A program made the position numbers and the translations under genes. The notes under the pieces are model-generated. The model did not search any database and was not told where the DNA came from. It worked only from the letters and a program-made list of their open reading frames with translations. This document shows, piece after piece, positions 21,279 to 51,797 of a stretch of 64,000 nucleotides of DNA (its first letter is position 1; every line of letters starts with the position of its first letter). The DNA comes from Acidobacteriota bacterium (GTDB lineage: Bacteria; Acidobacteriota; Thermoanaerobaculia; Gp7-AA8; JAHWKK01): NCBI GenBank assembly GCA_019347945.1, contig JAHWKK010000001.1, positions 193,299 to 257,298 of the forward strand, given 5' to 3'.

Positions 21279-21608
21279 TCAGTCGGAAGATCCGCTGGGA
21301 GCAGCCTTCGAACCGGTCGACTTCGAATCGGTGGACTTCGAATCGGCCGCCTTCGAGCCAGACGCGCTCTCCGCCTTTCCGGCTTCCTTCCCTGACGACG
21401 CGCCCTCACCTTTCGAATCGCCCGAGGAAGGCTTCGCATAGTCGGTGATGTAAAAACCGGAACCCTTGAACTGGATCGCCGGGGAGGAGATCAGTTTCTT
21501 CAGAGTCCCCCCACAACTGCTGCAGACGCTCAGCGGTTCGTCTGAGAATTTCCGCACCACCTCGGTTTGCTCCCCGCAGGACTCGCAACGATATTCGTAG
21601 AGTGGCAT
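21279..21608 (-). CDS. FmdB-type zinc-ribbon protein with Ser/Lys-rich tail
   Basis: Residues 1-43 are a classic FmdB/CxxC-CxxC putative regulatory zinc ribbon: M-P-L-Y-E-Y-R-C-E-S-C-G then V-C-S-S-C-G-G-T-L-K-K-L-I, followed by F-K-G-S-G-F-Y-I-T-D-Y. The remaining ~50 residues are a low-complexity Ser/Lys/Gly/Ala tail with imperfect repeats of S-K-S-T-D / S-K-S-T-G, reflected in a short tandem DNA repeat around 21310-21345. Such tails vary widely in this family. FmdB was first described next to formamidase genes; its biochemical role is still open. Confidence 0.88.
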   Translation of the reverse strand: MPLYEYRCESCGEQTEVVRKFSDEPLSVCSSCGGTLKKLISSPAIQFKGSGFYITDYAKPSSGDSKGEGASSGKEAGKAESASGSKAADSKSTDSKSTGSKAAPSGSSD

Positions 21609-25260: not shown

Positions 25261-25355
25261 GCAGGGATCAGGGGTCAGGGATCAGGGATCAGGGATCAGG
25301 GCGAGAAGCAGGGGTCAGGGATCAGGGATCAGGGCGAGAAGCAGGGATTAGGGGT
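25261..25355 (+). repeat. Heptad array, unit ATCAGGG (forward orientation)
   Basis: This stretch is built from imperfect 7-bp units (ATCAGGG, GTCAGGG, ATTAGGG), interrupted by a short GCGAGAAGCAGGG segment that itself appears twice. It lies between the sufT stop and the M64 peptidase start. An inverted counterpart follows at 25490-25516, giving an array-spacer-inverted array layout. Confidence 0.85.
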
Positions 25356-25489
25356 TGGGGAAAGGATCCAGGGCGGGCTTACAGAATGAAGACTTCGTCA
25401 TCCAGCCCGCGGCAAGGGAGTTAGTGGAGTCGAGGAGTCTCCAGCTGGGCTACGTGATTGCTGAAACGATCACGATCCCGTTGCCCCGC

Positions 25490-25516
25490 CTGATCCCTGA
25501 TCCCTGATCCCTGCTT
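25490..25516 (-). repeat. Heptad array, inverted copy next to sufT stop
   Basis: Units read CTGATCC / CTGATCC / CTGC on the plus strand, the reverse complement of the array at 25261-25355. It ends a few bases before the sufT stop codon (25518-25520). The ~135-bp spacer between the arrays has a small inverted repeat (CGTGAT/ATCACG at 25453-25474) and no convincing gene. Confidence 0.8.
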
Positions 25517-25517
25517 T

Positions 25518-26060
25518 TCAATACATCCCGAGCTGCAGCTTGGCGGCGTCCGACATCATGCTTCGGTCCCATGCGGGATCGAAAACGATGTCGACCTCCG
25601 CCTTTTTGATCGGCCCCAGTGACTCGACCTTCTTTCTGACGTCCTCGGCGAGAACTGGTCCCATTCCGCAGCCCGGTGCCGTGAGGGTCATCTTGATGTC
25701 GACGTCGTAGCCCTCGTCGTCTCGTTCTTTCAGCTCGCACAGATAGACGAGGCCCAGCTCGACGATGCTGACCGGAATCTCCGGGTCGTAACAGGTGGCC
25801 AGCTGATCCCAGACCATCGATTCGAGCTCCTCTTTGGTGACGTCGGCCTCGATCTCCACGTGGACCGGAGGTTCCTTGCCGATGCCCTCGACCTCCTGGC
25901 CGGAGACGCGGACCATCCAGCCCATATCGGTCATCAGGGTGTAGGACCCGCCGAGCGACTGGGTGATGGTCGCCTTGGTTCCTGCCGGGAGGATCATCGA
26001 CTCGCCGTTCGGAATTGTGGTGACTTCGATCTCTCTGGTGGTTTCGATTTGTTCGTACAT
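25518..26060 (-). CDS. sufT: SufT-like Fe-S cluster maturation protein (MIP18/DUF59 domain)
   Basis: The 180-residue protein has an N-terminal beta-rich part (residues 1-65) and a C-terminal MIP18/DUF59 domain (about 75-175) with V-W-D-Q-L-A-T-C-Y-D-P-E-I-P-V-S-I-V-E-L-G-L and M-T-L-T-A-P-G-C-G-M-G, including the conserved Asp-Pro-Glu and Cys. This two-part architecture is that of SufT, which assists Fe-S cluster assembly or delivery. No other suf gene is nearby; several Fe-S or heme proteins are encoded in the following block, but a link is not shown. Heptad arrays flank the gene on both sides. Confidence 0.88.
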   Translation of the reverse strand: MYEQIETTREIEVTTIPNGESMILPAGTKATITQSLGGSYTLMTDMGWMVRVSGQEVEGIGKEPPVHVEIEADVTKEELESMVWDQLATCYDPEIPVSIVELGLVYLCELKERDDEGYDVDIKMTLTAPGCGMGPVLAEDVRKKVESLGPIKKAEVDIVFDPAWDRSMMSDAAKLQLGMY

Positions 26061-26103
26061 GTCAGTGTCTTCAACCGATGCGCGTGGCGAGAAATGTCAG
26101 TGA

Positions 26104-26138
26104 GGCAGGGGTCAGGGATCAGGGGTCAGGGATCAGTG
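26104..26138 (+). repeat. Heptad array, unit RTCAGGG, forward orientation upstream of sufT
   Basis: About five imperfect 7-bp units (GTCAGGG and ATCAGGG alternating) lie 44 bp upstream of the sufT start. The inverted partner is at 26205-26362, after a ~66-bp spacer without a visible gene. Layout mirrors the pair at 25261-25516. Confidence 0.85.
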
Positions 26139-26204
26139 CGGACTAGCGGTATGAGGCGCTTTCGTCGTCGATCACGGCGTCCAAAACCAAAGCATGTCTT
26201 TACT

Positions 26205-26362
26205 CTCCTGCCCCCTGATCCCTGCTTTTTACCTGATCCCTGCCCCCTGATCCCTGATCCCTGATCCCTGATCCCTGCTTTTTTACCTAATCCCTAGTCC
26301 CTAATCCCTAATCCCTGCTTTTTCTTACCTGATCCCTGACCCCTGATCCCTGATCCCTGCTT
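26205..26362 (-). repeat. Long inverted heptad array between sufT and yqeY
   Basis: On the plus strand this reads as runs of TGATCCC and TAATCCC units broken by CTTTTT(A)CC spacers, in three blocks (26210-26235 and on, 26283-26318, 26328-26360). Block-separating T tracts follow each CCCTGC end. The last block lies inside the yqeY coding sequence and supplies its last codons and stop. Confidence 0.88.
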
Positions 26363-26804
26363 TTTCCAGTCTGGCTGCCACGATCTCCTTTGCCACCCGT
26401 CCGTCGATCTCGCTCTTGTGCCGGCTCATCAGGGCTCCCATGACCTTTCCGGTGTCTGCCTTCGAGGCCGCGCCGGTTTCGGCAATGATCCGGTCGACGA
26501 TCGCAGCGGTTTCCTCCGCGGAGAGCATTTCAGGGAGGTACTCCTCGATGACGGCGAGCTCGGCCCGCTCCTTTTCGGCGAGGTCGTTCCGTCCGGCCGC
26601 TTCGTACGCTTCGATCGACTCCCGGCGCTGTTTCGCGGCCCGGCGCACGACCTCCATCTCGTCCTCCGGGGTCAGATCGCGAACTTTGGCGATCCGTTCA
26701 TTGACCAGCGCCGTCTTCAGCAGGCGGAGAGTCGAGAGGCGCACCTGGTCCTTCGACCTCATTGCGTCCTTCAACTCTTCCTGGATCCGATCATTGAAGC
26801 TCAT
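26325..26804 (-). CDS. GatB/YqeY-domain protein with repeat-derived C terminus
   Basis: From ATG 26804 the 159-residue protein is a YqeY-type tRNA-amidotransferase-like domain: S-F-N-D-R-I-Q-E-E-L-K-D-A-M-R at the start, R-L-L-K-T-A-L-V-N-E-R-I, Y-L-P-E-M-L-S-A-E-E and G-K-V-M-G-A-L-M. Members resemble the GatB tail domain; their own function is unsettled. The final ~11 residues (K-A-G-I-R-D-Q-G-S-G-I-R) are encoded by the heptad array and the stop lies within it, so the native C terminus has been replaced or extended. Its ribosome-binding region (GGGAGAA) lies in a decayed copy of the slt 3' end. Confidence 0.9.
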   Translation of the reverse strand: MSFNDRIQEELKDAMRSKDQVRLSTLRLLKTALVNERIAKVRDLTPEDEMEVVRRAAKQRRESIEAYEAAGRNDLAEKERAELAVIEEYLPEMLSAEETAAIVDRIIAETGAASKADTGKVMGALMSRHKSEIDGRVAKEIVAARLEKAGIRDQGSGIR

Positions 26805-26868
26805 CCGAGTTCTCCCTCGCAAAAAGTGAGTCGCCGTTAGGTGTCAGCATAACGCTGGTAGCTATTGA
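26790..26868. repeat. Left direct repeat: decayed copy of the slt 3' end
   Basis: This ~79-bp segment matches the last ~87 bp of slt at 42065-42151 in the same orientation. Exact blocks shared are TTCTCCCTCGC, AAAAGTGAGTCGCCGT and GCATAACGCTGGTAGCT; between them are a 6-bp gap, a 1-bp indel and a few substitutions. It covers the last codons of the FAD/Fe-S dehydrogenase, the intergenic space and the yqeY start. Read as slt, it even keeps the terminal L-Q-stop, which overlaps the yqeY start region. Confidence 0.85.
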
Positions 26869-46825: not shown

Positions 46826-46893
46826 AGAGACGAGCGGCGAGCGACGAGTGGCGAGTGACGAGTGGTGAGTGGCGAGTGCGAGAGAGACCAGAG
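46826..46893 (+). repeat. Heptad array, unit GAGTGRC, directly after proS
   Basis: Starting 3 bp after the proS stop the sequence runs in 7-bp steps: GACGAGC, GGCGAGC, GACGAGT, GGCGAGT, GACGAGT, GGTGAGT, GGCGAGT. It is a different unit from the ATCAGGG arrays but has the same period. A short inverted run follows at 46965-46987. Confidence 0.8.
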
Positions 46894-46964
46894 GCGAGGG
46901 AAGGATGGCTCACTCCTTCCGCCGTGGTTGAAGAGATCGCGAGCGAAGCGAGCGCACCATCCGT

Positions 46965-46987
46965 TCGTCCCTCGTCCCTCGTCGTAC
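46965..46987 (-). repeat. Short inverted heptad run (GACGAGG)
   Basis: On the plus strand TTCGTCCCTCGTCCCTCGTC is three 7-bp units in the opposite orientation to the array at 46826-46893, after a ~70-bp spacer. It lies upstream of the porin gene and 93 bp before its ATG. Confidence 0.65.
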
Positions 46988-51179: not shown

Positions 51180-51467
51180 ATGGCCGGAATGACCGGGCGG
51201 CCCTTTCTCGAGATGACGTCGAAGATGATCAGCGGCGAGATTCCTCCGCCTCCGGTCGCTTCGCTGATCGGATTCGGGATGGAATCGGTCGGCGACGGTA
51301 AGGCGGTCGCCGTCCTCGATGCCAGCGAACGTCACGCGAACCCGATGGGGACTCTTCACGGGGGGATTCTGTGCGACCTCGCCGATGCGGCGATGGGGAT
51401 GGCATGGGCGAGCGAGCTCGAAGAGGGGGAGTCGTTCACCACCCTGGAGGTGAGAGAAGAAGAGTGA
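51180..51467 (+). pseudogene. PaaI-type hotdog thioesterase, truncated by a heptad-repeat array
   Basis: From ATG 51180 the product is 95 residues and reads as the first part of a PaaI/YdiI-type thioesterase: H-A-N-P-M-G-T-L-H-G-G-I-L-C-D-L-A-D-A-A-M-G, with the Asn/His-Gly-Gly and Asp of the active site. After S-F-T-T-L-E-V the frame runs into the GAGTGAA array and stops within a few codons. Full members have ~130-150 residues, so the second half of the hotdog fold is missing. It is therefore probably inactive, unless it works as a fragment. Confidence 0.75.
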
Positions 51468-51560
51468 AGGGTGAAGAGTGAAGAGTGAAGAGAGAAGAGA
51501 GAGAAGAGTGAAGAGCGAAGGGTGAGACTGTCGAGGTCTTTTCCTTCACTCTTCACTCGT
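51455..51560. repeat. Heptad array, unit GAGTGAA, within the thioesterase 3' end
   Basis: Repeating 7-bp steps GAGTGAA/GGGTGAA/GAGAGAA/GAGCGAA occupy 51455-51522. An inverted piece (CTTCACTCTTCACTC) sits at 51545-51559. The array begins where homology to PaaI thioesterases is lost and supplies the frame's stop. Confidence 0.88.
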
Positions 51561-51574
51561 CAACAACGCGCCGG

Positions 51575-51665
51575 GCTCAGAATGACGAGTTTTGCCTTTG
51601 TGTGGAAGCGACGATCATGGACGAATGTTTAACTCTCGCGAAACGAACCCCTCGTCATCCTGAGC
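51575..51665. repeat. Inverted repeat GCTCAGRATGACGAG inside the array region
   Basis: GCTCAGAATGACGAG (51575-51589) and CTCGTCATCCTGAGC (51651-51665) are inverted copies with one mismatch, separated by ~61 bp. The second arm runs on into GAAGGATCT-like sequence resembling a dispersed motif I recall from several bacterial genomes. No coding frame is convincing between the arms. It could form a hairpin or be a MITE-like element. Confidence 0.65.
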
Positions 51666-51750
51666 CGCCGAAGGACGGCGAAGGATCTGGGGGCAGGCTC
51701 GTGACTGAAGGTGAGAGTATCGAGAGGTTACCTTCACGGTGTCTCTTTTT

Positions 51751-51797
51751 CACTCTTCACTCTTCACTCTTCACTCTTCACTCTTCACTCTTCACTA
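51751..51797 (-). repeat. Heptad array (GAGTGAA units), inverted, abutting the TIGR02588-like stop
   Basis: On the plus strand this is CACTCTT repeated six times in perfect register, the reverse complement of the array at 51455-51522. It runs directly into the stop codon (TAG, 51795-51797 on the minus strand) of the next gene, so the array again begins at a gene's 3' end. Confidence 0.9.

Follow-up and report, generated by a model that had tools for sequence, protein, structure and literature searches.

In the stretch of 64,000 nucleotides of an Acidobacteriota genome analysed here (the window), the gene sufT is flanked on both sides by convergent pairs of 7-bp tandem arrays. These cassettes are not specific to sufT but are two among many in the genome, and they probably belong, with an estimated probability of about 0.58, to a population of discrete, inserted hairpin elements that resemble REPINs and occur throughout the genome. 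The basic element would consist of a G-rich arm of ~31 bp, a short loop unrelated in sequence and an inverted C-rich arm, the G-rich arm being built from five trinucleotides spaced by four tetranucleotides, which gives the period of seven. The observation itself is real and represents one instance of a widespread and partly described phenomenon. Of the host genome, which comprises 3.72 Mb in 49 contigs, stretches totalling 0.86–0.88 Mb were sampled; relatives, which belong to the same order and to a different family, were likewise sampled in stretches.

The coordinates agree with the claim of the first-pass annotation that two cassettes of the same plan flank sufT (Table 1), the spacers being ~130 and 76 bp long. 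Cassette 1 occupies the gap between the start of an M64 peptidase gene (25236) and the sufT stop (25518). Its G-rich strand lies on the plus strand at 25262–25301 and 25309–25334, with degenerate copies up to ~25359, and points away from the start of the peptidase gene. Cassette 2 occupies the gap between the sufT start (26060) and the yqeY stop (26325), and its inverted sub-blocks include 26238–26277, 26286–26316 (a CCTAATC variant) and 26328–26359. The final block lies inside the end of the yqeY ORF and codes for the C-terminal tail of YqeY, GIRDQGSGIR; of the 165 residues, the YqeY domain (PF09424) extends to residue 152, and the tail beyond it is array-encoded. The array neighbours sufT, yqeY and proS are housekeeping genes. 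No match to a yqeY adjoining sufT was found in the relatives, and no Rfam family of structured RNAs matched in the window.

Table 1. Heptad arrays, spacers and adjoining genes in the window (positions of the window).
Feature	Position	Strand	Remarks
Cassette 1, G-rich array	25262..25359	+	CAGGGAT and CAGGGGT variants, last copies degenerate; GATTAGGGGTTGGGG
Cassette 1, spacer (loop)	25360..25488		~130 bp
Cassette 1, inverted array	25489..25513	-	CCTGATC; 4 bp from sufT stop codon
sufT	25518..26060	-	FeS_assembly_P domain, PF01883
Cassette 2, G-rich array	26106..26136	+	31 bp; 45 bp upstream of sufT
Cassette 2, spacer (loop)	26137..26212		76 bp
Cassette 2, inverted arrays	~26213..26359	-	four sub-blocks, joined by GCTTTTTACC
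yqeY	26325..26822	-	GatB/YqeY-like; array invades ORF end
Period-7 array	46831..46878	+	CGAGTGG/CGAGCGG; 7 bp past prolyl-tRNA synthetase gene
Convergent partner array	46965..46983	-	TCGTCCC
Period-7 array	51459..51520	+	GAAGAGT; overlaps 3′ end of small ORF
Convergent partner array	51749..51796	-	TTCACTC, perfect, 6.9 copies; 3′ end of facing ORF

The period of seven had also been noticed to recur in the window with other sequences, and two further pairs (46831–46983 and 51459–51796) bear this out; the small ORF overlapped by the first array of the latter pair has a weak thioesterase-fold match. At a score of at least 13, ten period-7 runs were found in the window, compared to none in 20 Markov-1 simulations of 64 kb, and among periods 2–13 the only other run was a single one of period 6. 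The expected genome-wide preference for seven was found as well, with 73 intergenic period-7 arrays in 877 kb of the host genome, where no other period from 4 to 12 exceeded 7 arrays. In 702 kb of the relative G001 there were 224 such arrays versus at most 40 (period 8) for the other periods, a density that is biased, as some G001 stretches were picked for holding copies, while polarity, size and pairing are unbiased. Within the order the density of arrays is very uneven, being high in G005 while no array occurs in the initial 60 kb sampled from G008, a congener of it. Two other repeats were seen alongside: a 15-bp tandem repeat (CTTCGAATCGGTCGA, 3.4 copies) at 21306–21356 of the window, in or beside a weakly supported ORF, and, in G001 (e.g., L210), another class of inverted pairs, which has period 8, is of the GGTCACGA type and comprises 40 arrays and 11 pairs in 702 kb. 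An assembly artefact, which had been named as a possible undoing of the pattern, is unlikely, as the same plan recurs in many independently assembled relatives. Some arrays do lie within ~300 bp of contig ends (G000 C13:183-203, C24:302-322, C30:298-325), so that the draft assembly may lack or have collapsed some copies.

Units in the host genome are CAGGGAT, CAGGATT, GAAGAGT, GGTTGCC, GGTTTGA, CGAGTGG and others; other genera carry AGTNCTG, CGGGTAG, AATTGAG, GAAGGCA, TTAGTTG, AAGGATG, GGGTGTC and more. Across these differing units the architecture is constant. The mode of array length is 31 bp (4 × 7 + 3) in every genome, the host included, arrays of non-AGT units peak at 30–31 bp, and the arms of the best-sampled family, AGTNCTG, open and close at AGT, at one fixed position in the unit. 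Owing to this length mode and fixed unit phase, the heptad arm is a defined object rather than a random product of slippage, although long arrays that have slipped are found as well. Microsatellites expanding locally by slippage, with inverted partners arising by hairpin template switching, would account for these long and higher-order arrays, which are present especially in the host genome (up to 131 bp), and period seven is indeed the commonest period of intergenic tandem repeats in prokaryotes, for which "no clear clue" to function was reported (PMC6344855). Such an origin is nevertheless quite improbable, since the 31-bp mode, the fixed phase, the single polarity and the presence of one unit at hundreds of loci do not fit independent slippage. 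One 24-mer alone has 524 + 513 exact matches in G001. Three-copy ATCAGGG has 43 matches in the host genome, and none of 148 further genomes from the class has more than 3.

For Xanthomonas and Nostoc it has been proposed that such repeats act as G-quadruplex (G4) elements regulating transcription or genome stability, and the published G-rich units form G4 in vitro (PMC4692102). The sufT unit CAGGGAT likewise gives at least four GGG tracts per array. However, the G3+N1–7 motif was found in few arrays (host 16/70, G001 14/225, G005 1/23, G010 2/42), and arrays without it have the same size, pairing and polarity as the G4-capable ones, which makes a G4 role very unlikely as the general explanation. 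The constancy of the architecture over many units, few of which are G4-capable, is new beyond the description from Xanthomonas.

Inverted pairing, on which the first-pass annotation had let its proposal depend, was confirmed, and a fixed orientation relative to gene ends was found. The G-rich strand points away from the nearest gene end in 61 of the 66 host arrays located between two called genes, namely at 24/25 starts and 37/41 stops, with some error in gene ends as genes were called by a simple codon-model script. Gaps with two arrays were convergent ("+-") in 20/21 cases in the host, 58/69 in G001, 14/17 in G010 and 10/10 in G005, and in one array family adjacent arms at most 100 bp apart were convergent in all 59 cases. 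The complementarity of arms within a locus was 0.84–0.93 versus 0.64–0.75 for permuted partners, and the observed matching exceeded all 200 permutations in each of the four genomes with at least 10 pairs. At L015:8720-8842 a heptad array begins within 1–2 bases of the 3′ end of an apparent tRNA-Leu gene; it had looked far from any called ORF, the tRNA gene beside it having been missed by the calling script. The gene-end rule thus seems to include RNA genes.

Gain and loss of elements and their turnover were followed in genomes of the sister family, including a congeneric pair, at loci other than sufT. The str-S10-spc operon was compared in 12 genomes, the stretches being picked by gene after the operon had first been noticed in G010, where it is rich in elements; gaps with a heptad hairpin had a median length of 103.5 bp (n = 44) versus 15 bp for those without (n = 270). 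The median element there has an arm of 30 and a loop of 12.5 bp, begins 6 bp past the stop codon and ends 21.5 bp before the next start, with the G-rich arm as the 5′ arm in 42/44 cases. The gap between L2 and S19, for example, is 106 bp long in G012, whereas it measures -1 bp in six genomes. ORFs which overlap in one species are also seen to be parted by a hairpin pair in a congener. The S17–L14 gap holds AGTCCTG, AAGGATG or GGTTGTC elements depending on the species; one gap may be empty or carry differing units across genera and even within a genus (S17–L14, G004 vs. G006). No heptad hairpins were found in the str-S10-spc operon of the host genome, and the elements are consequently not required there. 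Many ribosomal-protein gaps of G014 (L224) are 85–115 bp long without recognisable arms and possibly hold decayed elements.

The congeners G001 and G010 share 85% nucleotide identity over the compared region. Among ~40 of their orthologous gaps, a hairpin of period 7 or 8 was present in both genomes in 14, in one in 8 and in neither in ~18. None of the 14 gaps filled in both had identical arms, and loop homology was not significant, with 40 of 300 shuffles reaching the observed value. The flanks are conserved, as the stop codon and the ribosome-binding region beside the hairpins are still recognisable. The congeners keep the positions of the elements, and their arms turn over jointly with the loops.

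The main rival to insertion is that the host selects inter-cistron RNA stems which shape mRNA processing, decay or translation, the stem being kept while its sequence drifts. The folding examined in line with the first-pass annotation agrees with this, the pair regions being far stabler than shuffles (median z of about -8 to -10), and so do the complementarity that is retained though both arms change and the filling of identical gaps in several genera. The higher conservation of gap occupancy than of sequence in the congeners could likewise mean selection for a hairpin, or else conversion in place. On the other hand, mismatches in transcribed arms showed no clear preference for G-U (41) over A-C (29; one-sided p = 0.09), many genomes, including the host, lack the elements in the str-S10-spc operon, and host loops of several hundred bp make a compact stem less likely. 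Moreover, one gap contains, next to a heptad pair that was replaced, a conserved GC-rich hairpin that carries a T tract and is presumably a real terminator; this hairpin evolves by ordinary point changes, whereas heptad pairs do not. We therefore regard RNA-stem selection as unlikely, though it deserves more weight than the other alternatives.

That the pairs are bidirectional intrinsic terminators is extremely unlikely. Some of the inverted sufT blocks end in GCTTTTT, T is slightly more frequent directly past the arms, and in the host convergent gaps are richest in arrays (17/61). In G001, by contrast, tandem gaps are richest (94/235) and convergent gaps poorest (10/59), the elements sit within ribosomal-protein operons, and the T fraction past the arms is 0.2–0.5 with no consistent T run. 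A hairpin followed by a T run, as in an intrinsic terminator, is accordingly not the general structure, although a few sufT blocks do end in TTTTT.

The comparison with REPINs (PMC3116915, PMC8049555) is instructive for the preferred reading, the inserted hairpin. Both share hairpin-forming inverted arms, a short and diverse spacer, many extragenic copies and the occurrence of singlets beside doublets; spacers of REPINs are highly diverse (PMC8049555), and short spacers in many copies were found in the relatives, whereas host loops are longer. The arms differ, since those of REPINs consist of palindromic REPs tagged with GTAG or CGTC and those described here are tandem heptads (AGTNCTG, CAGGGAT, GAAGAGT). 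Unlike in REPINs, copies with the same arms do not share loops: no sharing was found between the loops of same-arm copies in G001. REPINs also have a cognate RAYT gene whose flanks carry the REPIN's own repeat, while the RAYT-like genes (PF01797) found here (L191, L193, L194, L196, L197, L198) are flanked by classical palindromic REPs like GCCCCCGGCTTCAGCCGGGGGC, and no heptad arms were present beside any of the six RAYT genes with readable flanks. RAYT enzymes are hence not obviously responsible, and RAYT was rejected as the mobiliser, the strong RAYT genes carrying classical REP flanks and G005 combining many arrays with one weak RAYT match. REPs of the GCCCCCGGCTTCAGCCGGGGGC kind are also present in host spacers.

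Loops in the host are long, up to several hundred bp, and some contain other repeats. One dispersed repeat of ~190–228 bp (90–91% identity, both orientations, motifs CGTCATCCTGAG...CTCAGGATGACG) is shared by the spacers at L019:9844-10194, L061:7453-7813, L064:15305-15806, L019:13156-13837 and L062:5606-5956, where arms of differing units enclose it, i.e., as a repeat nested inside heptad pairs. Copying of whole elements was considered as the source of these shared spacers and rejected, as the sharing comes from the nested repeats. With slippage-lengthened arms, long loops and, in some, nested repeats, the host elements look old.

Under the inserted-element account, an element would be gained whole between neighbouring genes, usually past a stop codon and ahead of the conserved ribosome-binding region that precedes the following gene, and copies would persist only where no ORF or tRNA gene is broken. 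Removal of gene-breaking insertions would explain why the arms hug gene ends, and as an inverted repeat reads the same from either strand, the G-rich strand would point away from the genes on both sides. A unit common to many loci would reflect dispersal inside a lineage, units being replaced within a genus, and the turnover in blocks may be replacement or conversion. We infer that the elements were gained by insertion, not by local growth, and that the population owes its persistence mainly to self-propagation and not to a host function. Several findings count against this account. Simple copy-paste of arm, loop and arm predicts shared loops, which G001 does not have. With respect to MITEs, inverted ends are present, but a by-eye look at empty and filled gaps of the relatives recognised no target-site duplication, and no cognate enzyme was found, the RAYT genes being flanked by other repeats. 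Single arrays are also frequent (26 vs. 21 pairs in the host). The account does not explain the non-sharing of loops in G001, the 31-bp arm or the period of seven.

A dedicated, undescribed enzyme that writes the elements from a 7-base template with a fixed product of 31 bp is a long shot, though templated end addition followed by joining would, speculatively, fit random loops and fixed arms. Such an enzyme could, for example, extend both 3′ ends of a chromosome break with G-rich heptads, after which the ends are joined. If this were true, end addition would give convergent G-rich strands, a matching unit, equal arms, a loop made of a random junction and survival exclusively between genes, and the heptad hairpin would be a telomere-like repair scar in bacteria, its template being specific to the lineage.

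The intergenic tandem repeats with a seven-base unit known as STRRs in heterocystous cyanobacteria were suggested as a parallel by the first-pass annotation. This link holds for the period of seven but fails for unit and lineage, as STRRs have other units and occur in another phylum, and the nearest named relatives of the host were no cyanobacteria but Acidobacteria gp7 and Thermoanaerobaculia MAGs. Its impression that inverted array pairs at gene ends had not been described could not be upheld either, since a study of heptamer repeats in Xanthomonas had reported their pairing, orientation and position at gene ends, with 70 and 75 convergent pairs in two genomes (Rehm et al., 2015; PMC4692102). 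In that work the G strand points away from the gene, the repeats lie no more than 50 bp from ORF ends and four units are preferred; turnover of length and sequence between species was described as well, with an emphasis on G4 and no mechanism. Period seven, intergenic position, polarity, convergent pairs and a size of about four units are all shared by the Xanthomonas/Nostoc repeats and those studied here. In contrast to the single G4-forming unit per genome studied there (GGGAATC or GGGGA(C/T)T), many units and a fixed size of 31 bp are found here, in Acidobacteriota, and gain and loss as hairpins of ~80 bp inside ribosomal-protein operons go beyond that description. TAACTGA repeats of Beggiatoaceae (PMC4679880) are likewise intergenic with a period of seven and lie beside start codons, but they are direct, almost never inverted, of one unit and not G-rich. 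Elements of four tandem heptanucleotides, partly intergenic and in dozens of copies, are known from Geobacter metallireducens and were proposed, in a study that did not deal with pairing or insertion, to be RNA or regulator-binding elements (PMC2700814). Heptamer arrays are reportedly the most abundant intergenic tandem repeats of prokaryotes (PMC6344855), and a limited literature search yielded no paper that treats heptad repeats as inserted hairpins or reports them in Acidobacteriota.

What is added here is the 31-bp architecture, which is independent of the unit, and the comparison of empty with filled gaps. The hairpin repeats are a large, fast-changing intergenic population across one order of Acidobacteria, and the question moves from a role of G4 or microsatellites to what makes and places hairpins with 31-bp heptad arms. 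Given the congeneric pair with its hundreds of copies, and given ribosomal-protein gaps both empty and filled, gain, loss and effects on expression are directly testable.
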